Source: an uncultured cyanobacterium (GTDB taxonomy: Bacteria; Cyanobacteriota; Cyanobacteriia; PCC-6307; Cyanobiaceae). Taken from it: a DNA stretch of 64,000 nucleotides. The number at the start of each line of letters is the position of its first letter. Position 1 is the first letter of the stretch. The notes beneath the pieces are model-generated. The model worked only from the letters and a program-made list of their open reading frames with translations, was not told where the DNA came from and made no database searches. Shown here in pieces: positions 7,514 to 45,714 of this stretch. A program made the position numbers and the translations under genes. The stretch lies in assembly GCA_903871775.1 (NCBI GenBank), contig CAIQIA010000007.1, positions 1 through 64,000 on the forward strand, given 5' to 3'.

Positions 7514-8467
7514 ATGGCAGAGCCCCAGGTCGTCGCAAGCCTTCATGCAGCCGCCGGCGGCGACCGCCGCCGGCTGTGGCGGGCGGCGATCAAATGGCCC
7601 ATGTATTCGGTGGCGGTGATGCCCGCCCTGGTGGTGGCCGGCGGCCTGCTGGGCCAGGGTCCGGGGTTGCGCTGGGGCCAGCTGGGCCTGTTCCTGCTAG
7701 CGGCGGTGCTGCTGCTGGCCTGGGAGAACCTGACCAACGATGTCTTCGACAGCGACACCGGCGTCGACCGCAGCGGCAAGCCCCATTCGCTGGTGAACCT
7801 CACCGGCCGCCGTGACCGCATCGCCCTGGCCGGCAGCCTCTGCCTGCTGGCGGGCCTGGCCTTGATGGCGCTCGTGGCCTGGCGCAGCCAGCCGTCGGTG
7901 CTGCTGCTGGTGCTGGCCTGCTGCGGCATCGGCTACCTGTACCAGGGCCCGCCGTTCAGGCTGGGCTACCGGGGCCTGGGGGAACCGCTGTGCTGGCTGG
8001 CCTTCGGACCCCTGGCCACGGCGGCGGCCCTGCAGGCCCTGGCCCTGGTGCCGGCCGACAACCTCTGGCCGCGGGCGCTGCAGCTGGGCAGCGGCCCGGC
8101 CCTGGCCACCACCCTGGTGCTCTTCTGCTCCCATTTCCACCAGGTGGAGCAAGACGCCGCCCATGGCAAACGCTCGCCGGTGGTGCGCCTCGGCACCGCC
8201 CGGGCGGCGGCGCTGGTGCCCTGGGCCGTGGCCGGCACCCTCGCCCTCGAGCTGCTGCCCCTGCTGGCCGGCGCCTGGCCCCCCACCGTGCTGCTGGCCC
8301 TGGCGGGCCTGCCCGCCGCCACCGCCCTGATCGGCCTGCTGCAGGTGCACCATCCGACCCCCGCCCGGGTGGCGGGCAGCAAGTTCGTGGCCCTGCGCTT
8401 TCAGGCCATCAATGGCCTGGGCCTCGCCCTGGGCCTCGCCCTGGGGCCGCTGCTGCTGGGCCGGTGA
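7514..8467 (+). CDS. menA: 1,4-dihydroxy-2-naphthoate phytyltransferase
   Basis: 317 residues, UbiA superfamily integral membrane prenyltransferase with about eight hydrophobic segments. The first aspartate-rich motif is NLTNDVFDSDTGVD. It attaches a phytyl/prenyl chain to 1,4-dihydroxy-2-naphthoate, giving the membrane-bound precursor of phylloquinone (PSI cofactor). The TGA overlaps the GTG start of menC (GTGA), so the two genes are translationally coupled. Confidence 0.93.
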   Translation: MAEPQVVASLHAAAGGDRRRLWRAAIKWPMYSVAVMPALVVAGGLLGQGPGLRWGQLGLFLLAAVLLLAWENLTNDVFDSDTGVDRSGKPHSLVNLTGRRDRIALAGSLCLLAGLALMALVAWRSQPSVLLLVLACCGIGYLYQGPPFRLGYRGLGEPLCWLAFGPLATAAALQALALVPADNLWPRALQLGSGPALATTLVLFCSHFHQVEQDAAHGKRSPVVRLGTARAAALVPWAVAGTLALELLPLLAGAWPPTVLLALAGLPAATALIGLLQVHHPTPARVAGSKFVALRFQAINGLGLALGLALGPLLLGR

Positions 8468-9495
8468 GCGGCGACCTGGTCAGTCGCGACCTGGTGAGCG
8501 GCGATGCGTGGCTGCGCCTCGAGGTGCGCGCCACCGCCGTGCCCCTGCCCACGCCCCTGCACAACCACCGCGGTTTCCACGGCGACGGGCGCAGCTGGCT
8601 GCTGCGGCTGCAGACCGACGACGGGCGCCTGGGCTGGGGGGAAGCCGTGGTCGCCGACCGGGTGCTCGACCCCACGGCCGATGCCGGCATCGCTGCTGCC
8701 CTGGCGGCCCTGGGCCCCGAACCCCGGCGCAGCGATCTCGAAGCGCAGCTGCCGCGGCTGCCCCGGCCCCTGGCCTTCGGGCTTGGGCTGGCCCTGGCCG
8801 AACTCGACGGCCTCGGCCGTGATGGCTGGCGCGCCGCCCCCCGGCCGGCGCAGCTGCTGCCGGCCGGTGCGGCGGCCCCGGCGGCCCTGGAGCGGTTGCT
8901 GGCCCACACCAGCCGCGCCGGCACGGCGGCACCACCGCTGCCGCTGACGGTCAAATGGAAGGTGGCCGTGGCCGATCCCGACCACGAACTGGCCCTGCTC
9001 GAGCAGCTGCTGCAGCAGTTGCCGGCCACGGCCCGCCTGCGGCTCGATGCCAACGGCGGCTGGGACCGGCCCACGGCGGGCCGCTGGGCCGCCCGGCTGC
9101 AGCACGAACCACGGCTGGACTGGCTCGAGCAGCCCCTGGCGCCCGCCGACCACGCGGGCCTGCGGGCCCTGGCCCTGCAGCTGCCGGTGGCCCTCGACGA
9201 ATCCCTGCGGCATCCGGCCGGGCCACCCCGGGGCTGGAGCGGCTGGTGGGTGCACCGGCCGGCCCTGGAGGGCGATCCGCGGCCGCTGCTGCAGGCGTTG
9301 CAGGCAGGCAGCCCGCGGCGGACCATCAGCACCGCCTTCGAGACCGGCATCGGCCGCCGCGCCCTCGAGCACCTGGCGGCCCTGCAATGGGCTGGCCCCA
9401 CCCCCTGCGCCGCCGGCCTGGCCCTCGACCGGCAGCCGCCCGGCGACCTGGCCAGCCGCGATCCCCAGCGGGTCTGGGGGGCGGCAGGGCCATGA
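8464..9495 (+). CDS. menC: o-Succinylbenzoate synthase
   Basis: 343 residues, enolase superfamily. The start is a GTG at 8464 overlapping the menA stop. Catalytic and metal-binding segments are LTVKWKVAV (Lys), RLDANGGWD (Asp), LDWLEQPL (Glu) and LPVALDESL (Asp/Glu). It dehydrates SHCHC to o-succinylbenzoate. The repeated SRDLVSGD-like N-terminus suggests that a slightly downstream start is also possible. The ATGA overlap with menE continues the coupled menA-menC-menE run. Confidence 0.92.
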   Translation: MSGDLVSRDLVSGDAWLRLEVRATAVPLPTPLHNHRGFHGDGRSWLLRLQTDDGRLGWGEAVVADRVLDPTADAGIAAALAALGPEPRRSDLEAQLPRLPRPLAFGLGLALAELDGLGRDGWRAAPRPAQLLPAGAAAPAALERLLAHTSRAGTAAPPLPLTVKWKVAVADPDHELALLEQLLQQLPATARLRLDANGGWDRPTAGRWAARLQHEPRLDWLEQPLAPADHAGLRALALQLPVALDESLRHPAGPPRGWSGWWVHRPALEGDPRPLLQALQAGSPRRTISTAFETGIGRRALEHLAALQWAGPTPCAAGLALDRQPPGDLASRDPQRVWGAAGP

Positions 9496-10637
9496 ACGGC
9501 TGGGAGCTGCTGGCCGCCGCCGAAGATCGGGCCGCCGGCGAGGCGCTGCTGGCGGCGGCCCTGTCGGCGGCCGGGGGCCTGCCCGACGGGCCGGGGGTGG
9601 TGCTGGCCAGCGGCGGCAGCAGCGGCCGGCGCCGCTGGTGCCTGCAGCCCCGCCGCCATCTCGAGCAGTCCGCCGCCGCCAGCGGGCGCTGGCTGCGGCA
9701 GCTGGGCATCGATCCGGCGGCGGTCGAGCTGGTCAACCCGCTGGCGCCCCACCACATCGGTGGGCTGATGCCCCAGGTGCGGGCACAGCAGTGGCAGGTG
9801 CCGCTGCTGGCCCTGCCGCCGGCGGCCCTGAAGCAGCCGGCCCTGCTGCCCCGGCCCGGGGCCGGCGGCCGGCCGGCCCTGCTGTCGCTGGTGCCCACCC
9901 AGCTGGGGCGGCTGCTGGCCGACCCCGAGGGCATCGCCTGGTTGCAGCGTTTCGCCGTGATCTGGGTGGGTGGTGCCGGGCTGGACGCGAAGGCCGCCGC
10001 CGCCGCCCGCCGCCACGGCCTGCGGCTGGCCCCCTGCTATGGCGCCACCGAAACCGGCGCGATGGTCACGGCCCTGGCCCCCGACCGGTTTCTGGCGGGG
10101 GCCGACGGCTGCGGCCCGCCCCTCGACGATGTGGAGCTGCAGATCAGCACGCCAGGGGCTGCGGTGGCGGTGCGCACGGCCCGCCTCAGCCCGGGCTGGA
10201 TCAACGGCGCCGCGGGCCTGCAGCCCATCGCCGACGACGACGGCTGGTGGTGCAGCGGCGACTGCGGCCGGCTGACGGCCGATGGCCTGGTGCTGCGGGG
10301 CCGCCGCGACGGGGCGGTGCTGAGCGGCGGCGAGACCGTGCACCCCGAAGAGGTGGAGGCCGCCCTGGCCGGTGTCGACGGGCTCGGGGCACTGCTGGTG
10401 CTGGGGCTGCCCGATGCCGACTGGGGCGAGCGGCTGGTGGCGCTGATCAGACCTGGCGCTGACCAGGCCCTGGAGCCGCTGCTGGCCCGGCTGATCGGGG
10501 CCGCCGCAGCCCTGCCGCCGGCCCAGCGGCCGCGGCAATGGCTGCCGTGCGCTGCGCTGGCCCCCAATGCCCAGGGCAAATGGGACCGGGCCCACTGGCG
10601 CCGCTGGGCCCGGGCGGCCCTCAGGGCCGGCAGGTGA
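9492..10637 (+). CDS. menE: o-Succinylbenzoate-CoA ligase
   Basis: 381 residues, ANL adenylate-forming enzyme. The phosphate loop is SGGSSGRRRW. Further motifs are PCYGATETGAMV, WWCSGDCGRL, RRDGAVLSGGETVHPEEVE and a C-terminal Lys in APNAQGKWDR. It is shorter than typical acyl-CoA ligases, as is usual for MenE. It activates o-succinylbenzoate with CoA for MenB. The last 17 bases overlap the convergent lysozyme/peptidase gene. Confidence 0.92.
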   Translation: MNGWELLAAAEDRAAGEALLAAALSAAGGLPDGPGVVLASGGSSGRRRWCLQPRRHLEQSAAASGRWLRQLGIDPAAVELVNPLAPHHIGGLMPQVRAQQWQVPLLALPPAALKQPALLPRPGAGGRPALLSLVPTQLGRLLADPEGIAWLQRFAVIWVGGAGLDAKAAAAARRHGLRLAPCYGATETGAMVTALAPDRFLAGADGCGPPLDDVELQISTPGAAVAVRTARLSPGWINGAAGLQPIADDDGWWCSGDCGRLTADGLVLRGRRDGAVLSGGETVHPEEVEAALAGVDGLGALLVLGLPDADWGERLVALIRPGADQALEPLLARLIGAAAALPPAQRPRQWLPCAALAPNAQGKWDRAHWRRWARAALRAGR

Positions 10638-12444
10638 GCAGCCAGCCGCCGGTGTCCTGGGGGCGCCAGCGGGGCACCCAGTTGCGATACGAGTAGTGCA
10701 GCCCGGCGCCGTCGTGGTGCGAGGCATAACCCCCTTCCACCAGGTCGCAGTTGCCGTAGGGGTCGTTGATGAAGAAGCCGGTGGCGTCGTAGCCGATGAT
10801 CACGCACCAGTGGCCGCCGCCGCTGGGGGCGCTGACGGGTCCGTCGCAGAGCCAGCCCACGGCCACCGGCCGGCCGGCGTCGATCTCGGCCTTGAGCATC
10901 GCCACGGTGCCGTCGGTGCGGAAGTCGGCCTGCAGGCCGAGGGACCGCAGGGCCTGCAGCTGGGCCTCGCTGCTGGTGCTGTCGCCGTAGCACTGGCGCA
11001 CCCGGTCGTAGGCGTCCTCGTTGGGTTCCTTGCCCCAGAAGGCTGCCAGCATCGCCGAACTGGCCGAGAAGCACTCGCGGTAGCCCTGGCCATCGGCCAT
11101 CAGCAGCTGGTCGAAGTAGGGCACCGTGAGCCGATGGACACCCGACGGCGACGACGCAGGAGCCGAGGAAGAAGCAGCACTGGGAGACGGGGATCCAGAG
11201 ACGGTGACCGGGGTCTGCCAGAGCTGCCCTTCGGCCTGGCGGCGCCGCAGCAGGCCGTCGGTGACGGCAGTGCCGGGATCGCAGTAAAGACAGAGGGTCT
11301 GGGGCACCTGGGCCCAGTTGCGATTGCGCAGATCGCGGCTGATGCTGGCGAAGTCGGCCTCGTCGCCGTAGAAGTCGTCACCCAGGTTCCAGGCGAAGTC
11401 GACGAGGGCGCAGCGTTGGTTGCTGTTCATCTCTGCCCAGTAGGGGATGGTACCGGCCAGGTGGGCGGCGCAGGCCTGCGCCTGGACCTCGAGCTCGCGG
11501 TCGGCGGCGGCCGGAGTGATGGTCTGACCCGGCACCACCGCCGCACCGCCGACGGTGGTGAAGCCGTAGCCGATGGTCCAGGGTTCGGCGCCACTGGCCG
11601 GGTCGGGGTAGGCGTGGTCGACGAACCCCTCGAACTGGCGGATCAGGGCGAGGGCCGGGCCGAGGGGGTCAGCCGCGGGGGGATGGGGCGCGGCGATCGT
11701 GGGCCGGTGCGGCGTGGGTGTGGATGGAGGTGCTGATGTCCTGATCGGGGTTGATGCCCTGGGCGGGGTCGCGGGCGGGGTCGGGGTGGGGTGGGTGGGA
11801 GGGGTCAGGACGGGGCGAGGGGTCTCGGTCGGGATTGTCGCCATCGAGGGGGTCGGCAGGGCCCCCGCCTGGCGCGCCAGGGGCTGGAACACCTTCGAGA
11901 ACTGGTTGGCCACGTAAGGGGCGAACAGGGTCAGACCCGAGTACAGAAAACCGGTCGCCGCACCGCTGCTGGCGGGCATGGCACAGGTGAAACCGAAGCT
12001 GTAGAGGCAGATGATGCCGAAGCCCAGGTACATCATCAGGATCACCACCATCCCCACCAGGGCGATGAGGCGGCTGCTGCTGGGCTCCAGCACCGTCACC
12101 GTGACCGGAGGGGTGCGGTCAATGCCAGCGGTTGCGGCCTCACGGTCGCCCATCGACTCGAGCCAGCGGGGGTCGGCCGGCACCTGCAGATGGGTAGGCT
12201 CCGAGAGGGCATTGGCGAGCGACCAGCCCTCCTTCTTCAGGCGCCGATCGATCTGGGCCAGGGCCACCAGGGACCCGAGCAGCACCACCGCCACCAACCC
12301 GTAGACCTCGGCGGTGCCCATGGGACGGCAGCCACCGGCCAGCACCTGGGCCAGCTCCTGGGCCGCCGCAGGCAGGCAGGCCACCGCCAACAGCAGCGGC
12401 AGCAGCCGCGAACGGCGCAGCAGATCAGATGTCACGCGGGGCAA
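10621..12444 (-). CDS. Membrane-anchored GH24 lysozyme / C39-like peptidase fusion
   Basis: 607 residues. Order: signal-like hydrophobic N-terminus (LLPLLLAVACLPAAAQ), a membrane segment near 45-65, another near 125-150, a Pro/Thr-rich linker around 200-250, a T4-lysozyme-like GH24 domain (LIRQFEGFVDHAYPDP, TIGYGFTTVGG, LVDFAWNLGD), a Ser/Ala-rich linker, then a C39_2 papain-like domain with Cys in YRECFSASSAM, His in GGHWCVIIGYD and INDPYGNCDLVEGG. It probably cuts peptidoglycan and peptides outside the membrane. It interrupts the men cluster. Domain calls are fairly secure; the biological role is unknown. Confidence 0.8.
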   Translation of the reverse strand: MPRVTSDLLRRSRLLPLLLAVACLPAAAQELAQVLAGGCRPMGTAEVYGLVAVVLLGSLVALAQIDRRLKKEGWSLANALSEPTHLQVPADPRWLESMGDREAATAGIDRTPPVTVTVLEPSSSRLIALVGMVVILMMYLGFGIICLYSFGFTCAMPASSGAATGFLYSGLTLFAPYVANQFSKVFQPLARQAGALPTPSMATIPTETPRPVLTPPTHPTPTPPATPPRASTPIRTSAPPSTPTPHRPTIAAPHPPAADPLGPALALIRQFEGFVDHAYPDPASGAEPWTIGYGFTTVGGAAVVPGQTITPAAADRELEVQAQACAAHLAGTIPYWAEMNSNQRCALVDFAWNLGDDFYGDEADFASISRDLRNRNWAQVPQTLCLYCDPGTAVTDGLLRRRQAEGQLWQTPVTVSGSPSPSAASSSAPASSPSGVHRLTVPYFDQLLMADGQGYRECFSASSAMLAAFWGKEPNEDAYDRVRQCYGDSTSSEAQLQALRSLGLQADFRTDGTVAMLKAEIDAGRPVAVGWLCDGPVSAPSGGGHWCVIIGYDATGFFINDPYGNCDLVEGGYASHHDGAGLHYSYRNWVPRWRPQDTGGWLLTCRP

Positions 12445-34653: not shown

Positions 34654-34977
34654 TCAGCCCCCAGCTTGCTTCGGCCGGAAGCCCGCCTGTTCGAGGGCCG
34701 CCAGGGCTGCCGCCAGCTGGTCGCCCTGCAGTTCGATCACGCCGTCCTTGAGGGTGCCGCCGGTGCCGGCGCTGGCCTTGAGCTGCTTGAGCAGGGCCCG
34801 AGCTTCGGCGTCGGGCAGTTCAAGGCCGGTGATGGCCGTCACCAGCTTGCCCCCCTTGCCCGCCTTCGTGCGCTGCACCCGCACCCGCTGCTGGGCCCTG
34901 GGGGTGGCCGCCGCCGCCGGTTCAGGCCGGGAGGTAGCAGGGCTGCTGAATTCCTGCCAGCCGCCTTTGTTGGCCAT
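34654..34977 (-). CDS. SUI1/YciH-family translation factor
   Basis: 107 residues. A disordered Ala/Pro N-terminus precedes an eIF1-like domain (VRVQRTKAGKGGKLVTAITG, then LKQLKASAGTGGTLKDGVIE, then QAGFRPKQAGG). This is the bacterial YciH/SUI1 protein, which may affect initiation fidelity. It is a regular neighbour of trpB in picocyanobacteria; here the satellite and the amylase lie between them. Confidence 0.92.
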   Translation of the reverse strand: MANKGGWQEFSSPATSRPEPAAAATPRAQQRVRVQRTKAGKGGKLVTAITGLELPDAEARALLKQLKASAGTGGTLKDGVIELQGDQLAAALAALEQAGFRPKQAGG

Positions 34978-35164: not shown

Positions 35165-36418
35165 ATGGCCCTGCCCCCGCTGCTGCTGATGCTGCTGCCC
35201 ACGGCGATCGTGCATGCCCACAACGAACCTTTCAGGGCCGTGGCCGCCGAGGTGTGCGGTTTCGCGCGGGATGGCTACAGCCATGTGCTCATCACCCCCG
35301 CCCAGGTGTCGAACCCCGGACCGGAATGGTGGCGGCGCTACCAGCCGGTGGATCTGCGGCGCATCGGCGGCCGCGGCAGTGCCGCCGACCTGCAGGCCCT
35401 CACCCGCCGGGCCCACGGCTGCGGCCTGCGGGTGATCGCCGATGTGGTGCTCAACCACATGAGCAGCGACGCCGCCCACCGTTCGCTGCAGTTTCCAGGG
35501 CTGACCCCGGCCGATTTTCATCCCCGCTGCACCATCAACTACAACGACGGCAACACGATCAGCGAGCGGCGCTGCTGGCTCAACGGCGACCTGCCCGACC
35601 TCGACCCGTCGCGACCCGCCGTCGCCCGGCTGCAGCGGGCCCAGCTGCAGCAGCTGCTGGCCCTGGGGGTGGATGGCTTCCGGTTCGATGCCGCCAAACA
35701 CATCGAACCCGCTGATCTGGCCGGCCTGGTCGCCCACGGGCAGCGGCTCAGCGGCGGCCGCAGCTTTTCGATGCTCGAAGTGATCGACGACCACGACACC
35801 CGGCCGGAGATGTACACCGCCATCGCGCCGGTCACCGATTACGTGCTCTGCGACACGTTGCGGCAGGCCTTCGCCTACGGCGGTCAGCTGAGCAGCCTGC
35901 GGCTGCCGCGGGCGATTGCTGATCGCCGCAGCGTCACCTTCGGCATCAGCCACGATTCAGATCCCGCCATCAATCCGGGCTTCGGCCGCTGCCAGCCCAG
36001 CGATCGCCACGACGGGGTGCTGGCCACCGCCTATGTGCTCGCCAGGGCCGACGGCACCCCCCTGGTGCTGGCGGCCGACCATCGGCGTTCGCCACTCGTG
36101 CGGGCCGGGGTGCGCTTCAGGGCCAACCTGCAGGCCCGCAGCCGCGCCGGAGCCGACACCCGCGAATGGGTGCCGGCCATCGGCGACCCCCAGACCCTGC
36201 TGCTGATGGAACGGGGCGGCGAGGGGTTCTTCGTGGTGAACAAAGCCGCCACGCCCCTCACGCTCTCTGCCGCCGAGCTGGCCGGCGGGCAGCTGCGGGG
36301 CCGCTACCGCAACCTGCGCGACGGCCGGCTGCTGCTGATCGGTGGCCGCGACGGCCAGACCCTCACGGTGCCCGCCCGGGACGGGCTCTATTTTCTCCGC
36401 CAGCAGGGCGCACCCTGA
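35165..36418 (+). CDS. Secreted alpha-amylase-family (GH13) protein
   Basis: 417 residues from ATG 35165, chosen for its signal peptide (LPPLLLMLLPTAIVHA). GH13 barrel motifs: VIADVVLNHMS (region I), DGFRFDAAKHIE with the nucleophile Asp (region II), SFSMLEVIDD with the acid/base Glu (region III), and FGISHDSD in place of the usual NHD (region IV). It is shorter than most alpha-amylases. It ends in RQQGAP, and the 3' 22 bases form the left half of the satellite's attL. The product may act on external or periplasmic glucans. Confidence 0.82.
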   Translation: MALPPLLLMLLPTAIVHAHNEPFRAVAAEVCGFARDGYSHVLITPAQVSNPGPEWWRRYQPVDLRRIGGRGSAADLQALTRRAHGCGLRVIADVVLNHMSSDAAHRSLQFPGLTPADFHPRCTINYNDGNTISERRCWLNGDLPDLDPSRPAVARLQRAQLQQLLALGVDGFRFDAAKHIEPADLAGLVAHGQRLSGGRSFSMLEVIDDHDTRPEMYTAIAPVTDYVLCDTLRQAFAYGGQLSSLRLPRAIADRRSVTFGISHDSDPAINPGFGRCQPSDRHDGVLATAYVLARADGTPLVLAADHRRSPLVRAGVRFRANLQARSRAGADTREWVPAIGDPQTLLLMERGGEGFFVVNKAATPLTLSAAELAGGQLRGRYRNLRDGRLLLIGGRDGQTLTVPARDGLYFLRQQGAP

Positions 36419-36441
36419 TCTACTGCTGCATCGGCAGGGGC
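36397..36441. repeat. attL of the integrated satellite
   Basis: 45 bp matching 45437-45481 with three differences (at 36409, 36419 and 36423). It covers the last codons and TGA of the amylase, one spacer base, and, on the other strand, a copy of the last codons and TAG of the small RHH-like gene now found at attR. All three differences are silent: GGC/GGT in the amylase end, the spacer base, and CAG/CAA in the opposite gene end. Confidence 0.88.
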
Positions 36442-36731
36442 CGCCCCACTAAATCGCCTGCGCTGCAGTAGTTCTCAGGCATACAACTGGTCAGTGCGTG
36501 AAAAAGCGTGGGAATCGGTACGGGCTGAGGCGCTGGTGGATGCGGCGCGGGAGCCTGGCGGGCGTTGACTGCTGCCGAAACAAGTAGCCGTCACAGCGTG
36601 CAGATTTAGAATTGCGGGAATGAATGATGGGCACGGGAACCGGCCAAGTCAGCGCAGCGCCCTTAATTGACAGCATCTATGCGAGGAAATCGTTGTAGTA
36701 GCCTTTCATTGCATCGGTTTTATCTGGCATT
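36442..36731. other. Left-end noncoding region of the satellite
   Basis: About 290 bases (over 300 counting attL) between attL and the GIY-YIG gene. It holds a 24-codon coding-like fragment on the plus strand (36494-36568; VREKAWESVRAEALVDAA then a stop at 36566) and a TTGACA at 36668-36673 that may be a -35 box for the next gene, without a good -10 at ideal spacing. No tRNA is seen. Integrase arm sites would be expected here, but I cannot define them. Confidence 0.4.
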
Positions 36732-38279
36732 GTGGAAATTTCTATTCTCTTGAATCTGACCTGGGCGTGCCTGCTTGTTATTTGTTTATTCAGAATTCGG
36801 GAAAAGAATCAACAGCTACTACACGAAAAGACAAATAACGCTCATCTTCTTGCTGACCTTGACAGATATAAGCGAAAACACAACTTGATAGACGATGCCC
36901 AGCGATACTTTGACAATAGAAAGTCAAGAGCTGACAGCTTGGCGGAATCAATTATTGAAGGAGCTAAGGCGAAGGCTGCAGACTTACGCGAAGAGGCAGA
37001 CAACATGCGCAAACATGCTCAAGAGCATGCACAGGCAACGGCCGAAGAAGCCAAAGCGAAGGCTGCTGATTACCGCGCAAAAGTAAACTACGAACTTTCG
37101 TCTGTCGAGGCATTGCTAAGTGACAAGAAAAAAGAGCTAGCAATTACAGAAAACGCATTACGCTTGAAGTCTGAAGATGCGCGCGCCTTAGATGTTGGAT
37201 ACTATGAGCCAGTCTACGAGTTTGCCGACCTCGAAAAATACCAAAATGAGCTTGACTACATACTTGGAGAGAGAAAAAGGCTTCTGGTTCTTGACCCTAA
37301 GAATCTTAAAGACAAAGGGAAAGCCGCATACTCCTACAAGAACATGTTCGAAACTAGTCCAACACCTTTAAAAACTGACAACAGGAGAATCGAGAGAGTC
37401 TTGAAGCTGATGCTCAGGGCATTTAACTACGAATGTGACTCTTATACGACTAGAGTGACGTACAAGAATATTAATATTATGGAAAGGAGGATCAGATCGG
37501 CTTTTGACCAAATAAATAAACTAGCCGAGCCGTGGCATTGCATGATCACAACGCAATACTTAGAGAATAGGATTGACGAGCTTCGTCTGGTCTATGAATA
37601 CGAAGAAGCAAAGCAGCGTGAGAAAGAGGAGCAGGCCCAGATAAGGGAGCAGATCAGAGAGGAGGAAAAAGCCGAAAGAGAAGCACAGAAAGCGCAAGAA
37701 GAAGCTGAGAAGGAAGAAGCAAAGTATCAGGAGATGCTAAATAAAGCAAGGCTAGATGCTCTGATTGCCAATGAAAAAGACAAGGAGAAACTCACTATGG
37801 AAATCACAGAGCTCCAAAGGCGCATCTCAGAAATAGAAGAGAGAAAACGAGCCATCAGCCAGGCAATGCTCACAAAGACTGGGCACGTCTATGTGATTAG
37901 CAATGTCGGCAGTTTTGGCGAAGAAATCTTTAAGATTGGCATGACAAGACGTCTTGACCCTATGGACAGGGTAAAAGAACTAGGGGATGCCTCTGTGCCA
38001 TTTCCATTTGATGTTCATGCGATGATTAGGTCAAGCAATGCACCAGCTCTTGAGTCAGCACTGCATGCCCATTTCAATGAAAGGCGGCTGAATCTAGAAA
38101 ACGAAAGAAAAGAGTTCTTCAAGGTATCAATTGATGAGATTAAGGCTGAACTTGAATTGCTCAAACAGACCTTGGGCATAGACGGCGAACTTCGACTTAC
38201 ACTTCTCGCTGAAGCGAAGCAATTTCGCCTTAGTGAGGCCAAGAGAAAGCATCTTGAGGCCAGCTATGAGTTAAGTTAA
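36732..38279 (+). CDS. DUF4041 / GIY-YIG (T5orf172-type) protein with N-terminal membrane helix
   Basis: 515 residues from GTG. Residues 4-22 are a membrane helix (LLNLTWACLLVICLF). A charged coiled coil (30-160) follows, then DUF4041 (about 165-300; YYEPVYEFADLEKYQNELDY), a second Glu/Lys/Arg-rich coiled coil (295-375) and a GIY-YIG-like domain of the T5orf172/Mug113 group (380-470; GHVYVISNVGSFGEEIFKIG then MTRRLDPMDRVKELGD). The gene is far AT-richer than its neighbours and on the opposite strand, so it is a separate acquisition. Similar proteins ride on prophages and islands. A defence or superinfection role is an inference. Confidence 0.85.
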   Translation: MEISILLNLTWACLLVICLFRIREKNQQLLHEKTNNAHLLADLDRYKRKHNLIDDAQRYFDNRKSRADSLAESIIEGAKAKAADLREEADNMRKHAQEHAQATAEEAKAKAADYRAKVNYELSSVEALLSDKKKELAITENALRLKSEDARALDVGYYEPVYEFADLEKYQNELDYILGERKRLLVLDPKNLKDKGKAAYSYKNMFETSPTPLKTDNRRIERVLKLMLRAFNYECDSYTTRVTYKNINIMERRIRSAFDQINKLAEPWHCMITTQYLENRIDELRLVYEYEEAKQREKEEQAQIREQIREEEKAEREAQKAQEEAEKEEAKYQEMLNKARLDALIANEKDKEKLTMEITELQRRISEIEERKRAISQAMLTKTGHVYVISNVGSFGEEIFKIGMTRRLDPMDRVKELGDASVPFPFDVHAMIRSSNAPALESALHAHFNERRLNLENERKEFFKVSIDEIKAELELLKQTLGIDGELRLTLLAEAKQFRLSEAKRKHLEASYELS

Positions 38280-38288
38280 TCACACCGG

Positions 38289-38855
38289 TCACTCTGCCTT
38301 CTCCATCGCCTCCAACCCTTCCGCGAGGTGCTCCAGGGCGCTGCGGATCTCCGTGGTCAGCAGTTCATACACTGCCGCCGCGCTGTCCATGCAGGCGATG
38401 TCACCGGCCAGCCTCGACGGCAGTGACAGGAGCCGGTCGCGGCAGATGCGGCCCGCCTGGGCGGCGGCACGCTGAACATCCTCGACCTTCACCAGAGTGC
38501 CGGCGAGCTGGGCGGCTTCCATCTCCGCCACCTGGGCGCGGGCAGCCTCCCGGCGGGCGGCGGAGACATGCCGATCGGGTGGGTCCGCTGCCTCGGACTG
38601 CGCTGCCTCGACTGGTGCTGCTGGTGCTGCTGGTGGCGGTGGTGCCCATGCCTGCATCGGCAGCCTGTACGGCTCGGCCTGGTGATGATGCCGGCGCGTC
38701 GTTGCCTTGAACGCTGCAGCGGCTCGCCCTGGGTCGGCGATGCTGCCATCTGAGAGCAGCAGCTCGGCAGGGATTCGGCCCGCCCGGATCGCGTTGGTGA
38801 CGGCGGCGCGGCTGACGCCTAGCAGCCTGGCAAGGTCGGCTCTGGTGCAGCTCAT
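38289..38855 (-). CDS. Nu1-like small terminase subunit
   Basis: 188 residues. An N-terminal winged HTH (RADLARLLGVSRAAVTNAIR, then GRIP) is joined by an Ala/Pro linker to the helical region ARREAARAQVAEMEAAQLAG, TLVKVEDVQRAAAQAGRICR, DRLLSLPSRLAGDIA and a final helix. This matches the lambda Nu1 / phage DNA-packaging TerS pattern. In a satellite it would steer a helper's large terminase to satellite DNA. The ATG overlaps the stop of the upstream gene by 4 bases. It is the last gene of the minus-strand run. Confidence 0.75.
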   Translation of the reverse strand: MSCTRADLARLLGVSRAAVTNAIRAGRIPAELLLSDGSIADPGRAAAAFKATTRRHHHQAEPYRLPMQAWAPPPPAAPAAPVEAAQSEAADPPDRHVSAARREAARAQVAEMEAAQLAGTLVKVEDVQRAAAQAGRICRDRLLSLPSRLAGDIACMDSAAAVYELLTTEIRSALEHLAEGLEAMEKAE

Positions 38856-39142
38856 TTCGTTAGCAATGTGATTTCTCGGATGACTTTTCTTGCTCCGTCA
38901 TAATCTCCGACTTCCAGGAGTTTCTGATAGAGCTGGCGGTAACTCAGCAGTGCCCAACCTCTTACCGCGTCGCGGTCCGGGCTGCCGGCGGCAGCTAGGT
39001 GCTGCTGCACCGTCAACATCACCTGATCGCTGCGGGCGCGGGGATACTCGGCCTTGAGGGCCTCTTCGATCTGGGTCTCGCTGGCGCCGGTGAGCAGCCA
39101 CTGAACCACGGCCGCTGGTGCTGGCTGTCGTCTGTCAGCCAT
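38852..39142 (-). CDS. Small helical protein in the packaging operon
   Basis: 96 residues, all helical by appearance (VVQWLLTGASETQIEEALKA, then LLSYRQLYQKLLEVGDYDGA then RKVIREITLLTK). I cannot assign a family. The first half looks like a small HTH or helical hairpin. It overlaps the PLD-like gene by 8 bases upstream and the TerS gene by 4 bases downstream, so it is probably part of packaging or capsid-hijacking functions. Confidence 0.6.
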   Translation of the reverse strand: MADRRQPAPAAVVQWLLTGASETQIEEALKAEYPRARSDQVMLTVQQHLAAAGSPDRDAVRGWALLSYRQLYQKLLEVGDYDGARKVIREITLLTK

Positions 39143-39806
39143 GGCGTTTCCACCATTCCGTCTGCTCGCCGTGGGTGGCGTCCTGCAGGCTGCGGGGCTG
39201 CCGTTCCCAGACGTCGAGCATGGCGTCGATCAGGAACCGTGTCAGAGCTGGATCGTGGCCAACCTCGAATGATTCCAGGCGGGGATTCTGGTTTAAGTTC
39301 ATGCTGCTACGCAGGGCCACCTTCCATTCGCGGTTTTCGAGTACCGCGAACTTTGCGTGGGTTCGTGTTACCCGCATTGAGTCGCGGCCGAACCGGTCGC
39401 GGATCGTTGCCACCAGTGACGGGCACCGGCGAACGAAGGTCGCGTCAACCAGCCATCGGCACGCCACAATCTCGCCGCTGTGCAGCAGCTCGGACATGGT
39501 TGTCACGTCGGTGCCGGCAGCGGTCCAGGTGCTGATCCACAGCGATGCCGGGCCCGTCTTCTCGAGGATTGCCCGGATCAGATCCACCAAGCTGAACTGC
39601 CCTTTTGTCAGGCCGTAGACGGCGGTGCCGTCGCGGTCCAGGTGCTCGACGGCTTCGGCGGCTGACTGCTGGCGCCGCAGGTCGAGGATCAGCCGCTTCG
39701 GGCTGAGAGGCACCCGCGTGGTTCCCTGCCGGATGACCGTTGGATCGGCTACCGGCGGGATCGGCGGCTGTAGCAGCGGGTTTTCGGTGTTAATTGATTT
39801 TTTCAT
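39135..39806 (-). CDS. PLD-like protein
   Basis: 223 residues with one HKD-like half-site: THAKFAVLENREWKVALRSS followed by MNLNQNPRLESFEVG, preceded by a beta-alpha region LWISTWTAAGTDVTTMSELL. Single-motif PLD-fold proteins dimerise and can be nucleases. Genes like this occur near terminases in several phages (from memory). It is first in a three-gene overlapping run with the 96-residue protein and TerS. Confidence 0.7.
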   Translation of the reverse strand: MKKSINTENPLLQPPIPPVADPTVIRQGTTRVPLSPKRLILDLRRQQSAAEAVEHLDRDGTAVYGLTKGQFSLVDLIRAILEKTGPASLWISTWTAAGTDVTTMSELLHSGEIVACRWLVDATFVRRCPSLVATIRDRFGRDSMRVTRTHAKFAVLENREWKVALRSSMNLNQNPRLESFEVGHDPALTRFLIDAMLDVWERQPRSLQDATHGEQTEWWKRHG

Positions 39807-39889: not shown

Positions 39890-40882
39890 TCATGCTGCCT
39901 TCCCGATCACAAACGTGCCACGATTGGCGACGCCGCTTGCTACCGTCTGCCAGATTGTTAGCCTTGTCTTACCACTAGCAGCCAGTGAGTAGGGATCTAC
40001 GATTAACTCCGGCGCTCCCCAGAATCCGATTGTCAGTTGTGACCAGTCGGCACAGATGAACCGACCGGCAGGAATGAACCGGCTGAACATCACCGGCAAG
40101 CCAACGAGGCTGAACGGCTTGGCGTTGCCGGTGTGGATCGTCGGCGTATCACCGTGTACCGCCTGCATCGCGGGGCTGAAGTCAGCGGCACTCATCAGCC
40201 ATGCCATTGACGACATGGCGCCATCGGCCAGCAGCACCGTTTCGACAATCGCGGCAGCCTCCGCGAGGGTTGGCACCTGGCCGCTGATCTGCTGCTGGGG
40301 CAGCTCCGGCGCGGTCAGCAGGCCGAGGGGTTGACCGTTTGCGCCGTTGCCTGCGAGAACGCCTTGCTCGACGGTCGCGGCCAGCGTTCGGCGCATCAGA
40401 TCCAACATTGTCGTCTCTGCCCCTGGAGTCTTGAGTAGCTGGCGGGACAGCACCATCTTTGTGTATGCGTCGGCTCCGCTGAGGCTGACGCCGCTGAATG
40501 TGACGGTCGTCTCGACTGCCTCCATGTCTTCGGCGGCGTAACCACCAGCGGCGATTGCCGGCACTCCGACCGCCAGACCTGAGCGGTTCCCGGTCAGCTC
40601 GACCGTCTGCGATCCGAGCTGGTTGAGCAGCAGCGTGGGGCGGAGGGCTTTGGTCAGGACTCGGATTGAATCCGCGAGGAAGTCCGAGCTTGTCAGCGTG
40701 CGGGTTGCCGGGCCGACTGGCAGGAATGTACCGCCGCGCAGTTCGGCACCATTCTCAGATGCTGTTTTGGCGATCTTTGCACTGAGGCTGATCTCACGCT
40801 GGCCAGCGTAGGGGTTGAAAATTGACGCGTCCTGCTCGTGGCGGGATCGGACGACATTGAGCAGTGAATAGGCCGAGGGCAT
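39890..40882 (-). CDS. HK97-fold major capsid protein
   Basis: 330 residues. The Phage_capsid pattern is clear: SSDFLADSIRVLTKALRPTL, ATVEQGVLAGNGANGQPLGL, AWLMSAADFSPAMQAVHGDT, FSLVGLPVMFSRFIPAGRFI and the P-domain end VANRGTFVIG. The N-terminal arm is short, with no long delta/scaffold domain, and no protease or scaffold gene is nearby. It would form shells using helper portal and tails, or remodel helper capsids. It starts downstream of an intrinsic terminator, so it has its own promoter. Confidence 0.85.
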   Translation of the reverse strand: MPSAYSLLNVVRSRHEQDASIFNPYAGQREISLSAKIAKTASENGAELRGGTFLPVGPATRTLTSSDFLADSIRVLTKALRPTLLLNQLGSQTVELTGNRSGLAVGVPAIAAGGYAAEDMEAVETTVTFSGVSLSGADAYTKMVLSRQLLKTPGAETTMLDLMRRTLAATVEQGVLAGNGANGQPLGLLTAPELPQQQISGQVPTLAEAAAIVETVLLADGAMSSMAWLMSAADFSPAMQAVHGDTPTIHTGNAKPFSLVGLPVMFSRFIPAGRFICADWSQLTIGFWGAPELIVDPYSLAASGKTRLTIWQTVASGVANRGTFVIGKAA

Positions 40883-40971: not shown

Positions 40972-42714
40972 TTAGCAGGTTGATTTGGCCCGGTTGGGTG
41001 CTGGCTGGTGTTGGCGTTTTGGCCAGTGCGGATCATCGGAGTCATCGGCATCGTCGGCGGCATGTGATCCGGCGGGCATGACTGCTGCGGGTGTCACAAC
41101 CTGCCTGGGTGTCACGACCTGGCACAACTCCTGTTGTTGAGGTTGTGACGGGCAGACCGATTGCGCTGCAACGGATGTCACAACCTGGCCCGGTGTCACA
41201 ACCTTTTTCTCCACCTTTTCCCTGCAACTCTCCCCCGGGCCTACTTGCTTTTTATCCGCACAAAGAGAGTCAATAGGTTGTGACGGTTGTGACGGGGTGG
41301 GCAGTCCGCCTGCGCTGCAGTCGGTTTGGCCCGTCACAACCTCTGTCTCTGTGGTTGTGACATGTTGGGACGGTTGTGACGCCCAGTAGTGGGCCCGGTG
41401 TCCTTCAACGCGCCGGTTCTTCTTCTCGAATCCAAGGGCTTTCAGCACCTTTGATAGTCGCATCTCGTCCTGGCGGGTGATCTGCTCCGATCGCTTCAGG
41501 CCGGCGGCGTAGAGCGCCTCCGCGCTGGTGAAGGGTGTTTCAGGGTCGTAGCTGATCGGCGTGGGGTCGCGGTCTGGGTCCCATCGGTGCATCGGCCGGC
41601 CGTTTATCCATGCCTGCACCATCTCGGCCCATGGGTCGCCAACGTTGAACCGTGTGTTCTGATCCGCTGCTGCGAGTTCGGCTTCACGGGGGAGCATCGG
41701 CAGCTCTCCGGCGCGATACGCTGCCAGAGCTGCTTTCCAGATGGCGGCGCGGTGCGTGGTGATGGCGTCGCGGTCCAGGGTTGCGGTGCCCGTTATCGGC
41801 ACAATCCAGAATCGACGCGAGCCGGTGTCATCTCTGAGGAAGTGATCCTCGTTGACGGTGGCGCAGAGTGCTGATGTGCGTGGGAACTGCTCTGCAGCCT
41901 TGCCGTATGGCACCCGGAACAGATCGATTGGTGTTGTGATTAGGTTTTTGAGTGCTCCTGCGTCTTTCTTCGATGTGATCGAATCGAGCTCTGCCAACTC
42001 CATGATCCATGACCGCTTGAGGACCAAGAGGAAGTCCTTTTCGTTGTCGGGATGGGATGAGGTGAACCACTCGTCTCCAGCCAGTGCCATCAATGCGGTG
42101 GACTTGCCGAGACCCTGGGCACCCTGCAGCACCAGGCAGTAATCGAGTTTGCAGCCGGGCTGCATCACTCGTGATACGGCGCCCACCAGCCACGACCGCA
42201 CCATCTGAGCGTGCAGCGGATCTGATGCACGAAAGAATCGAGGGCCCACCGTGTTCAGGTCGATAGGCTCGATCTCTGGGTTCTGCTCGATTTTCAGCAG
42301 CCAGTCTCTGACCGGGTGAACTGGTGTCTGCCGTGCGACGTGCAGGGTTGCTTGCTTGACCGCCTCCTGGCTGCATCGCCATCCCAACTGGTCGAGGATG
42401 ACCCAGGCCGAGTCCAGGTCGCTGCCGTTGATGGTGGTCCATCCATCACGGGTTTGGAGCTGCGGCATCAGTTCCATCTCGTTGAACCTGAGCGCGGCGC
42501 CTGATTCGGCGATGAGGTTGGCGAAGTGGCCGGGGCTCAGGGCTGATGGTTTGATGCCTTTATCTGTCATCCTCCATCCTTCCGGCATCTGTTCGATCAG
42601 CGCCTGAAACGATGCCGGGCGATCACTACCGGCAGTTGCCTGGGGTCTGGTGCTGAGGATCTCGTCCAGGGTTGGGAGCGCCGGCTGATCCGGTGCTGAC
42701 GTCGCTTTATCCAT
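40972..42714 (-). CDS. VapE-like (SF3-type) replication helicase
   Basis: 580 residues from ATG 42714, which overlaps the primase stop by 8 bases; the open frame upstream is a shadow of the primase gene. Virulence-associated E ATPase domain: Walker A VLQGAQGLGKSTALMALAG near residue 200, acidic WIMELAELDSITSKKDAGAL, LKNLITTPIDLFRVPYGKAA and DTGSRRFWIVPI. A winged-helix-like segment follows (EMRLSKVLKALGFEKKNRRV). Residues about 445-541 are low complexity (VVTPGQVVTS, SQPSQ) because they encode the iterons. It probably unwinds the satellite origin. Confidence 0.82.
   Translation of the reverse strand: MDKATSAPDQPALPTLDEILSTRPQATAGSDRPASFQALIEQMPEGWRMTDKGIKPSALSPGHFANLIAESGAALRFNEMELMPQLQTRDGWTTINGSDLDSAWVILDQLGWRCSQEAVKQATLHVARQTPVHPVRDWLLKIEQNPEIEPIDLNTVGPRFFRASDPLHAQMVRSWLVGAVSRVMQPGCKLDYCLVLQGAQGLGKSTALMALAGDEWFTSSHPDNEKDFLLVLKRSWIMELAELDSITSKKDAGALKNLITTPIDLFRVPYGKAAEQFPRTSALCATVNEDHFLRDDTGSRRFWIVPITGTATLDRDAITTHRAAIWKAALAAYRAGELPMLPREAELAAADQNTRFNVGDPWAEMVQAWINGRPMHRWDPDRDPTPISYDPETPFTSAEALYAAGLKRSEQITRQDEMRLSKVLKALGFEKKNRRVEGHRAHYWASQPSQHVTTTETEVVTGQTDCSAGGLPTPSQPSQPIDSLCADKKQVGPGESCREKVEKKVVTPGQVVTSVAAQSVCPSQPQQQELCQVVTPRQVVTPAAVMPAGSHAADDADDSDDPHWPKRQHQPAPNRAKSTC
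41093..41380. other. Candidate replication origin: GGTTGTGAC iterons inside the helicase gene
   Basis: Nine exact copies of GGTTGTGAC or its complement GTCACAACC: plus at 41141, 41276, 41285, 41353, 41372; minus at 41093, 41177, 41195, 41333. One near-copy lies at 41111 (GTCACGACC). They form two groups, 41093-41203 and 41276-41380, around a 72-base stretch (41204-41275) with more A+T than the flanks. By memory, SaPI origins have the same plan: two iteron sets flanking an AT-rich core next to rep. Here the sites lie in the 3' coding part of the helicase. Confidence 0.75.
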
Positions 42715-43591
42715 GTCTCCGCCGCTCCCTAGCGCGCCTGGTCCGGGCACCAAGCCAGGCCACTGAGTACGGCGCTTTTGTCGTTTCGGCCTTGCGCCAT
42801 TGCCGGCGGAACTCGTCGCCGCCCTTGTGCTTGCTGCTGGCACTGGTCCAGGCGAAGGCTTCCGCTTCGCTGAGGCCGGCGCGGCGCATGGCGACCACCG
42901 TTGCCCACCAGTCGCGCAGGCACAGACCTTCGGCGGGCCAGAACTGGAGGTAGTAGCGGCAGGCGTCGGCATCTGTCCACCTGACGCACCTGTGTGGTGC
43001 TGGCGGTGGTGCTGCTGGTCGCGGCGGTGCTGGTGCTGGCGGTGGCGCGATTGCCTGCAGCAGCCATTCGGGGGCGACGGCGAGGGCCGAATCCCATGGG
43101 CTGATGATCCACCGGTAACAGCCGGTTTCGGGATGCAAGCCACAGATCACCGATTGCTGGCCGGCCCAGCGGATCTCCAGCGCGGTGTGCTGCTGGGGCT
43201 TCAGCCGGTGTCGCCACTGAAGCGGCACCAGCAGCGCGATCTGGCGGCGGCCCGGCTTGCCGCTGCTCCACGTCCATGAGCGCGCGAGGTCAGCGGCGGT
43301 CCGGCCGGTGAGCGCGTGGAAGCCGCGATCACCGGCCGCCGGATCATCGGCCGGCGGGTCGAAGTCAACGGCCACCAGGCCGCTGTGCCCCAACCTCATG
43401 CCGATGGCGGGGGCGGCGGCCAGCTGCTCGGTGCTGAAGATTCGGCCCGGTTGCTGCCAACCTGCGTGCATGGGCCGCTTGTTGGCACCGACGGGGATGA
43501 GCTGGCTGCTGTGTTCACCGAGCGCGGCTCTGAGGGCGGCCGCGGCCTGGTACCTGCAGGGGAATTGTGTGATCATGGTGTTGGGTTTCAT
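42707..43591 (-). CDS. Primase-polymerase (AEP/Prim-Pol) protein
   Basis: 294 residues from ATG 43591; longer in-frame starts run across the hairpin and the HTH gene end. The N-terminal Prim-Pol domain has LIPVGANKRPMHAGWQQPGR, IGMRLGHSGLVAVDFDPPAD (catalytic acids) and WSSGKPGRRQIALLVPL (basic/His-site region). A Pro/Ala linker follows, then a PriCT-like domain (DADACRYYLQFWPAEGLCLR, DWWATVVAMRRAGLSEAEA). It would prime satellite replication together with the downstream helicase; the genes overlap by 8 bases. Confidence 0.78.
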   Translation of the reverse strand: MKPNTMITQFPCRYQAAAALRAALGEHSSQLIPVGANKRPMHAGWQQPGRIFSTEQLAAAPAIGMRLGHSGLVAVDFDPPADDPAAGDRGFHALTGRTAADLARSWTWSSGKPGRRQIALLVPLQWRHRLKPQQHTALEIRWAGQQSVICGLHPETGCYRWIISPWDSALAVAPEWLLQAIAPPPAPAPPRPAAPPPAPHRCVRWTDADACRYYLQFWPAEGLCLRDWWATVVAMRRAGLSEAEAFAWTSASSKHKGGDEFRRQWRKAETTKAPYSVAWLGARTRRARERRRHG

Positions 43592-43600
43592 TTGTTGAGT

Positions 43601-43633
43601 GCCCGGCGGGTTGCAGCTCGCCGGGCTTTTTTT
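43601..43633 (+). terminator. Intrinsic terminator pointing against the operon
   Basis: Stem GCCCGGCG (43601-43608) with CGCCGGGC (43619-43626), then seven T on the plus strand (43627-43633). It sits between the HTH gene stop and the primase start, both on the minus strand, so the T-run serves plus-strand (antisense) transcription only. For minus-strand RNA the same stem lacks a U-tract. Confidence 0.6.
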
Positions 43634-43914
43634 CAGCGCAGTACGCGCCTGGACCGCTGCGCCAGTGCAGCCCAGACGGCGTCGGGCGCCCACCTGAGGT
43701 TTGGCGCTCTGGTGCCTGCACCTGCGGCGCAGTAGTGCACACCTGGCTTGAGGACACCAGCACGGCGAAGCCGGCGCAATGTCGATTCACTGATGCTGAG
43801 CTCCTGCGTGAGCTCGGATGTGGTCGAGGGGAAATGCATCGGACTGAGTAGTGGGGCGGATGCACGCATCTGGCGCACACCGCTGACGCTAGACGGCTCG
43901 ATTTGTGGGTTCAA
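43633..43914 (-). CDS. Small HTH protein, excisionase/regulator-like
   Basis: 93 residues. A MerR/excisionase-type winged HTH: STTSELTQELSISESTLRRL, RRAGVLKPGVHYCAAGAG and LRWAPDAVWAALAQ. Small HTH proteins with the same 'STLRRLRRAGVLKPGVHY' pattern are common next to integrases in cyanobacterial islands (from memory). It may direct excision or repress the replication genes. A 162-bp gap separates it from the integrase. The start may be internal (Met16 or Met26). Confidence 0.7.
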   Translation of the reverse strand: MNPQIEPSSVSGVRQMRASAPLLSPMHFPSTTSELTQELSISESTLRRLRRAGVLKPGVHYCAAGAGTRAPNLRWAPDAVWAALAQRSRRVLR

Positions 43915-44076: not shown

Positions 44077-45285
44077 CTACCGATTCGCCACAAGTGCTTT
44101 GACCTTGGCCATCAGGCGAGGGCTGTCCAACCGTCGGCCGTATTGGCTGATGTGGATTTGTGGCGAGTGCCCCATCAATTCGGCTGATTCCCTGACGCTC
44201 AGACCTAGTTCAGTCCCAAGCCTGATTGCGAACGCGTGTCTCATTCCGTAGACGGTCAATTCCTCAGGAATCCCGGTCTCTACAGGCGGTCGCTGCCTGA
44301 GTGATCGCAACTGTCTGCCCATGGACTGAGCAGGTGTTTGTCCGTTGAGGACCATTCCCGGCAGCCCGTGGGTCTCCCACCGCTGCAGCAGCCCATGGCA
44401 ATCCGCGGGCCAGCCTGCGGGCGGCACGGCGGGCACGATGCGGGCTCCACTGCTGCCGCTGCTGCTCTTCTTGTTGCGGCTGATCATCGCTACCAGCAAG
44501 CCGTCCTGCACCTCTAGGTGCAGAGCCTGTAACTCCTTTGGCCGCAAGCCGAACGCAATGAGCAGATCCCATGCCACCAGGGCAGCGGGATCCATCTTGC
44601 TGCGCCTGATGCGCAGCCGCAGCTCCTCGATCTCTGCATCAGTGAAGCTGCGGACGCCTCCGGGCGGCGCCGCCGCCTTGCCGTTACCGCGCATCCCCTG
44701 AACTGACTCGGGCCAGGGCCAGCCGGCCTGGCGCCAGATCTGCCTGAACCGGTCGTGGGCCATCTGCCGGGATCGGCTTCCTGGCTGCCAGTGCCGCAGG
44801 GTTGTGGTCAGCAAGGTCTGATCGTCAGGCTGTGGGCCGGCGCCTGCGGTGCTGATCAGCCTCTCGATGAAGGGGCGGTACATCAGCTTCCAGGTTGTCG
44901 GGCTGACCTTCTCTGGCACGACGTGATTTCGCAGCAGCTCTGCTGCTCGCTTCAGCCCTGCGGGTGTGAGCCTGCTGTCGTCGCCGGCACTGGGCACACC
45001 ATCGGGATCGGGCCACTGCCATGCGCCGGCCCGCACCTGGTCGAACAGGTTGCAGGCTTCCATCAGTCCCGCCGTCGCTGTTGCTGGCCCTGGGGGCGTT
45101 GCCAGGGTGACGCTTCTGCGTTTCTGCGGTGCGTCGGCAGGCTCGTCGGGCCGTGGCGGCAGTTCGTCGCTGACGACGCGCAACCTGTCGCGCATCACCT
45201 CGACGGTCCAGCCGGGCCGGCCCTGGCGGTGCCGCTTGAAGCTCCTGGAAAGGTCGGCCAGCCACTGCGGGCGGGTCAGGGCCAT
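44077..45285 (-). CDS. Tyrosine integrase of the satellite
   Basis: 402 residues from ATG 45285 (MALTRPQWLADLSRSFKRHR); an upstream in-frame ATG at 45453 would run into attR. Tyrosine recombinase boxes: IAFGLRPKELQALHLE (Arg I), ISRNKKSSSG (Lys), VYGMRHAFAIRLG (Arg II; Tyr in place of the first His of HxxR), LMGHSPQIHISQYGRRLDS (His and nucleophile Tyr). It sits 152 bases from attR and reads away from it, the usual position for site-specific integration. Confidence 0.92.
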   Translation of the reverse strand: MALTRPQWLADLSRSFKRHRQGRPGWTVEVMRDRLRVVSDELPPRPDEPADAPQKRRSVTLATPPGPATATAGLMEACNLFDQVRAGAWQWPDPDGVPSAGDDSRLTPAGLKRAAELLRNHVVPEKVSPTTWKLMYRPFIERLISTAGAGPQPDDQTLLTTTLRHWQPGSRSRQMAHDRFRQIWRQAGWPWPESVQGMRGNGKAAAPPGGVRSFTDAEIEELRLRIRRSKMDPAALVAWDLLIAFGLRPKELQALHLEVQDGLLVAMISRNKKSSSGSSGARIVPAVPPAGWPADCHGLLQRWETHGLPGMVLNGQTPAQSMGRQLRSLRQRPPVETGIPEELTVYGMRHAFAIRLGTELGLSVRESAELMGHSPQIHISQYGRRLDSPRLMAKVKALVANR

Positions 45286-45436
45286 GGGGCTGCTGCGTGG
45301 TTTCTGCGTGGAATCCTGGCAGACCTTGGCGACTTCCGCTTGTTCTTGGGCCTCTCCGACTGATGATCGTCTGGCTGAGACCTCAGTCTGTGACAGCGTT
45401 AGAACGCCTGCAGGGCCTGGAATCAGGGGATCCGAG

Positions 45437-45481
45437 CCGCCAGCAGGGTGCACCCTGAACTATTGCTGCATCGGCAGGGGC
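45437..45481. repeat. attR of the integrated satellite
   Basis: 42/45 identical to attL. The right half is the genuine 3' end of the small gene at 45460-45714 (ending PLPMQQ). The left half carries a copy of the amylase end (RQQGAP then TGA) with one synonymous change. The core therefore restores both convergent genes after integration. Confidence 0.88.
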
Positions 45482-45714
45482 ACGGGCCCCACGGTGGCGG
45501 TGCCCAGGCGCACCGAACAGCGGCCCGACGAGGCAGCCGCCGCCAGCTGGGCTTCGAGCTGCTCGAGGCCGGCCCGCACCCATTGCTCGCAGGCCCCCTC
45601 CAACGACTGGCCCGTCAGGGCCACCGCACGCTCGACCCGTTGCAAGAGCTCGGCATCCATCAACACCGACGCCCCGACCAGGGGCTGAGGGGTCTCTGCG
45701 GGAGATGCCGTCAT
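45460..45714 (-). CDS. Small host protein, RHH-like, hosts the att site
   Basis: 84 residues: SVLMDAELLQRVERAVALTG, QSLEGACEQWVRAGLEQLEA. The helical pattern fits a small ribbon-helix-helix or helical DNA-binding protein, but no partner toxin is adjacent, so I leave the function open. Before integration its stop codon would have lain one base from the amylase stop on the other strand. The last 22 bases belong to attR. Confidence 0.65.
   Translation of the reverse strand: MTASPAETPQPLVGASVLMDAELLQRVERAVALTGQSLEGACEQWVRAGLEQLEAQLAAAASSGRCSVRLGTATVGPVPLPMQQ

Follow-up and report, generated by a model that had tools for sequence, protein, structure and literature searches.

The way in which integrases change their targets has long been a question, since attP, attB and the protein all have to change together. 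The integrases of PICIs and helper-embedded PICIs form a clade that uses protein-gene targets with one tRNA exception, and their attP sites contain doubled motifs whose distances from the centre are fixed, a spacing that the authors suggested may constrain changes of the core (Tommasini et al. 2023, PMC10111431). At icd-type attachment sites, attP restores the 3' end of the protein gene (PMC10111431). Switches of target from one tRNA gene to another are already known from archaea, and it has long been recognized that the anticodon arm matches the layout of the core site (PMC8371274). Of 1.76 million genomic islands surveyed, 43.4% were located in protein-coding sequence and 33.8% in tRNA/tmRNA genes, the other 22.8% being intergenic (PMC12424338). 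Tycheposons and VEIME-type elements of marine picoplankton have also been named (PMC10187409); like the element considered here, they are tyrosine-recombinase integrative elements of picocyanobacteria or marine viral fractions, a likeness drawn by description only.

In this work, a stretch of 64,000 nucleotides from an uncultured cyanobacterium of the family Cyanobiaceae (the window) was analyzed, in which two direct repeats enclose a 9.04-kb satellite. Integrases that are 49-60% identical to the one encoded by this element occur in many Cyanobium/Synechococcus genomes and viral contigs. The satellites carrying them (L066, L067, L074 and others) share with the window element an HTH_17 neighbour of the integrase, equally spaced doubled arm motifs and a distance of ~5-9 kb between the att sites; L074 additionally shares VapE and a capsid gene. 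These satellites are located at tRNA-Val(TAC) or tRNA-Arg genes, whereas the window element occupies the 3' end of a protein gene (hereafter, the small gene). Based on sequence comparisons, we propose that the satellite was very likely retargeted from a tRNA gene to the 3' end of a protein gene, its attP core being replaced while the arm motifs and their spacing were retained. The features of the locus are as follows.

34654..34977, - strand: yciH/SUI1-related gene, which usually adjoins the small gene in relatives
35165..36418, + strand: alpha-amylase-like gene, host neighbour outside attL (PF00128, 3.4e-10)
36397..36441, - strand: attL core, integrase-distal; its overlap-to-amylase part would be host (attB) by crossover mapping
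36427..36433, - strand: predicted 7-bp crossover CGATGCA in attL (left-arm profile offset 0; motif spacing)
36496..36512, - strand: left doubled arm motif CCCACGC..TTCACGC (TTCACGC at -69 from the overlap)
36732..38279, + strand: PD-Lambda-1 anti-phage defence protein (DUF4041 + T5orf172; PADLOC PD-Lambda-1, 1.2e-137; Pfam)
38289..38855, - strand: terminase small subunit (phrog_57, 1.8e-22)
38852..39142, - strand: small ORF, 96 aa, no family matched
39135..39806, - strand: endonuclease-like protein (phrog_16945, 5.1e-41)
39890..40882, - strand: HK97-type major capsid protein (PF05065, 9.4e-21; phrog_617, 3.5e-28)
40972..43143, - strand: VapE-like helicase (PF05272, 3.5e-60)
42707..43693, - strand: Prim-Pol primase (PF09250, 2.4e-12)
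43633..43914, - strand: HTH_17 protein, AlpA/excisionase-like by position (sub-threshold match; integrase neighbour in most relatives)
44077..45285, - strand: tyrosine integrase, 402 aa (phrog_1, 5.5e-9; Pfam Phage_integrase, 0.0036, below the Pfam cut-off; 51-60% identity in the alignment to relatives)
45295..45314, - strand: right doubled arm motif ATTCCACGC..CCACGC (+159 from the overlap)
45437..45481, - strand: attR core, adjoining the integrase; its overlap-to-integrase part would be element (attP) by crossover mapping
45460..45714, - strand: target (small) gene, 84-aa conserved protein, C-terminus GP-x-PLP-x-QQ kept in relatives
45467..45473, - strand: predicted 7-bp crossover CGATGCA in attR, small-gene codons P-M-Q (profile and spacing)

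The repeats at 36397-36441 and 45437-45481 are identical at 42 of 45 positions (93% over 45 bp), and no further copy of the 45-bp core is present elsewhere in the 2.57-Mb genome; shuffling predicts 0.01 chance occurrences of a 22-nt core stretch in the window. The attL copy covers the end of the alpha-amylase-like gene, and the attR copy covers the end of the small gene on the opposite strand. A preliminary description of this locus had the repeat span both gene ends and a single spacer base; the ORF ends and the alignment agree with it, the amylase C-terminus RQQGAP-TGA (ORF 35165-36418) and the opposite-strand C-terminus PLPMQQ-TAG (ORF 45460-45714) being separated by 1 base. It had also reported that every difference between attL and attR is silent for both proteins, as borne out by codon comparison: 36409 C / 45449 T gives GGC/GGT, 36419 T / 45459 A is the spacer base, and 36423 C / 45463 T gives CAG/CAA. 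Given that 27% of single substitutions in the core are silent by chance, three silent differences out of three have a probability of ~0.02, which is suggestive, not strong.

From attL to attR, the element encodes PD-Lambda-1, the small terminase, the 96-aa ORF, the endonuclease-like protein, the HK97 capsid protein, VapE, Prim-Pol, the HTH_17 protein and the integrase. The integrase, HTH_17 (sub-threshold), Prim-Pol, VapE and the small terminase constitute a PICI-type gene set. Capsid-forming PICIs encode, in addition to the capsid protein, a head-forming set of their own (portal, protease and others); among the annotated ORFs of the window element, the capsid gene is accompanied by just the small terminase and an endonuclease, which leaves it outside that group. 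Neither a portal nor a large terminase was found among the annotated ORFs of the element by Pfam and PHROG searches, and a capsid search in viral contigs yielded no relatives. We infer that the element is a phage satellite, which would itself encode a capsid protein and a small terminase and receive the remaining functions from a helper. The PD-Lambda-1 gene (36732-38279) is cargo adjoining attL and is AT-rich compared with the rest of the element. Residues R248, R349-H350, H373 and Y382 of the integrase are invariant (14 relatives aligned). The integrase frame is open over 44077-45453, reaching into the attR core; its start at 45285 was deduced from the alignment of the relatives, and the core is located at -196 of this start.

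In 25 chromosomal relatives, the integrase is directly preceded on its own strand by a complete tRNA-Val(TAC) or tRNA-Arg, which ends at -148 to -136 in almost every case, and one further tRNA-type relative is interrupted by a contig edge. Six more copies, mostly from viral contigs, possess the 3' half of a tRNA from the anticodon loop onwards, as expected of attP or of a far att copy. In total, 32 related units have tRNA-Val or tRNA-Arg at the same place. The crossover in these relatives is predicted within the 7-nt anticodon loop of the tRNA, and four of them, including L066, have perfect or near-perfect att repeats of 43-55 bp. Among the integrase relatives checked, the window element is the sole intact exception to tRNA use; no tRNA is located near it, the sole tRNA in the window being at 9090-9159. 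One decayed clade member (L105, 7152-8364), with a frame-broken integrase and no adjoining tRNA, was excluded from this count. The tRNA-Val and tRNA-Arg users are interleaved in the integrase tree with several switches, so targets do change within the clade.

To locate the crossover, a left-arm profile was built from nine tRNA-type attPs, excluding the window, and was then slid along the window. The offset that makes CGATGCA the overlap scored 28.8 bits and ranked first among 63,800 offsets, while the next best offset within 60 bp scored -5.4. The left TTCACGC is found at -69 from this overlap in the window and at -69 or -70 in five of seven relatives, with an identical offset in L066, L067 and L074; the right doubled motif is found at +159, its distance in the measured relatives being +157 to +160 in 13 of 18 and +168 to +171 in the others. 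The 5-7-5 layout reads CCTGC-CGATGCA-GCAGT in the host version, and its tRNA counterparts are CCTGC-TTTACAC-GCAGG (tRNA-Val) and GCTGC-CTTCTAA-GCAGC; the right half-site of attP, GCAAT, matches the tRNA half-site more poorly than the host GCAGT does. Because SCTGC-N7-GCAG is common here, with 39 matches in the GC-rich window, the half-site match alone is weak evidence, and the argument is carried by the arm spacing. A 14-bp palindrome in attR, CAGGGTGCACCCTG, was considered as the crossover and dropped, as the arm profile and spacing favour CGATGCA. Strand exchange is predicted by homology to occur at CGATGCA. This sequence belongs to the small gene, from whose downstream stop codon 4 bp separate it, and lies outside the amylase, 8 bp past the stop of the latter. 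All three differences between attL and attR fall on the integrase side of this predicted overlap, so attR would hold the element version and attL the host version.

With such a crossover, the element is predicted to resupply just the last codon and the stop of the small gene, and the amylase would keep its own end whatever attP carries. As at icd-type sites, a replacement end in attP would keep the target gene functional; the window attP differs in that it would replace just the last codon and the stop, and in that its identity extends beyond the stop. The identity of attP and attB runs 23 bp past the small-gene stop, more than gene repair alone requires, and in the simplest reading the core was captured recently, the source being a host that had such a junction.

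The small gene is conserved in the relatives with an end of the GPVPLPVQQ type and in most of them the next gene is yciH on the same strand, no more than 112 bp away in seven loci and separated by inserted genes elsewhere. The amylase gene is present in 7 of 400 family genomes and lies beside the small gene in none of the others. The two genes are thus adjacent in none of the sampled relatives, which include a single congeneric genome (G001), an outcome that the preliminary description had itself named as a refutation; a conserved target formed by the convergent pair is not supported. An empty site, with the amylase and the small gene adjacent and no element between them, was not found in the same sample, one congeneric genome included. 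No second element was detected at the small-gene site in the family genomes or viral contigs searched, the small-gene ends of 16 relative loci showed no convincing direct repeats or homologues of element genes, and the core pattern had 0 matches in viral contigs. In G001 (L004, 1134-1500), a gene for a PemK-like toxin fills the gap and ends one base from the small-gene stop, the same convergent spacing as that of the amylase in the window. The flank beyond the small-gene stop is weakly similar between G001 and the window (p 0.087), and this similarity was set aside as evidence. Most homologues of the amylase (35165-36418) carry a C-terminal tail of the form R-x-P-F-x-x-C as well as the partner Cys and a stretch of 13 residues; the window protein has none of the three, and its family similarity ends where the att core begins.

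The arrangement of the core can be explained in several ways. According to the preliminary description, the element carries a diverged, host-derived copy of the double gene end and was under selection to keep the two convergent genes intact. The silence of all three differences (chance ~0.02) and the extension of the attL/attR identity through the last amylase codons agree with such selection, but the predicted crossover in the small gene means that the amylase end is never exchanged: it would be host DNA throughout, for which selection for a whole amylase is unneeded, while the amylase-side copy inside attR would be under no amylase selection. Together with the absence of a conserved amylase-small gene pair in relatives, this makes selection for both genes very improbable. 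What is supported of the earlier proposal is an att-flanked integrase element whose attP holds a slightly diverged, host-derived copy that completes the small gene; its service to both genes is not supported. The same description had called targets at junctions of convergent genes rare; with 43.4% of surveyed islands in protein-coding sequence (PMC12424338), protein-gene targets are generally not rare, and the unusual point is a switch inside a tRNA-using integrase clade, unique in this clade. Alternatively, the amylase may have been brought or truncated by an earlier insertion at the same core, its last codons being att sequence. The sporadic occurrence of the amylase in a gap that is variable among relatives, the loss of the tail, the stop of family similarity at the core and the PemK-like gene at the same one-base spacing in G001 are in line with this scenario, which we nevertheless regard as rather unlikely: no third copy of the core was found near yciH as a mark of an older element, the G001 flank similarity is weak (p 0.087), one amylase homologue also lacks the tail, and the window protein lacks the partner Cys as well. 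A local duplication unrelated to the integrase, which had been named earlier as an outcome that would overturn the att interpretation, is exceedingly improbable; nothing was found in its support, and it is contradicted by the clade-typical integrase-proximal distance of the repeat and the clade-typical offsets of both arm motifs.

The repeats, the clade-wide use of tRNA genes, the arm spacing and, by homology, the crossover position were read from the sequence, and a direction from tRNA to protein gene is suggested by parsimony, on which it rests because the window integrase is located near the clade base. In the integrase tree, this protein and 28 tRNA users form one clade (100/100 support against outgroup integrases), where it is placed beside L066 with an open fork. 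This basal position would be compatible with an old protein-gene site from which the tRNA users were derived, with no switch away from tRNA; however, 28 of the 29 clade members use tRNA genes, L066, the nearest to the window integrase by path, is at tRNA-Val, and several more distant integrases likewise adjoin tRNAs, which makes such an origin quite unlikely.

In the preferred scenario of a switch from a tRNA gene, the ancestral attP would have matched the 3' half of tRNA-Val(TAC) or tRNA-Arg, and strand exchange would have taken place in the 7-nt anticodon loop. This tRNA-derived core would have been swapped for the 3' end of the small gene plus 23 bp beyond it, probably derived from a host whose own small-gene locus was diverged, while the arm motifs, the arm-crossover spacing and the 5-7-5 layout were held constant. 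The resulting ~9-kb phage-satellite-like element would integrate via its own tyrosine integrase at the 3' end of the 84-aa gene and provide its last codon and stop, as its relatives provide the tRNA 3' half. In the satellite origin of the integrases, the combination of protein-gene targets with a tRNA exception and the fixed motif spacing, this resembles the PICI clade (PMC10111431), to which it is likened by features; the PICI clade differs in being enterobacterial, in its prophage late-gene targets and in its motif.

A single clade member with a new core, and with arms and spacing the same to the base, separates what is replaceable (the core) from what is fixed (the arms and the spacing). 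Relative to known target switches, what is new is unusually clear evidence for a core change with constant arms and spacing. The window integrase and its sister L066 in the same genome constitute a defined pair for studying the protein change needed for a new target. The satellite L066 (contig C11, 2816-11703) occupies tRNA-Val(TAC) and is bounded by perfect att repeats of 50 bp. The genome has one full copy of tRNA-Val(TAC), adjoining L066, and one full copy of tRNA-Arg(TCT), adjoining the more distant integrase L008, so both usual seats of the clade adjoin integrases. It is conceivable, though doubtful, that attP cores are exchangeable cassettes at a fixed spacing and that crowding of the tRNA seats favoured a new, conserved landing site, obtained by capturing the 3' end of a protein gene; that occupation of both tRNA seats favoured a new site is speculation. 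The tRNA-Arg(TCT) locus (L147 / L008; contig C15, 40948-42369) consists of the single tRNA gene followed by the more distant integrase. At its far end, L066 carries an MmeI-type restriction-modification gene (8030-10798). The satellite L074 (10030-18950), with the same integrase type, codes for VapE and an HK97 capsid protein and is located at tRNA-Arg.
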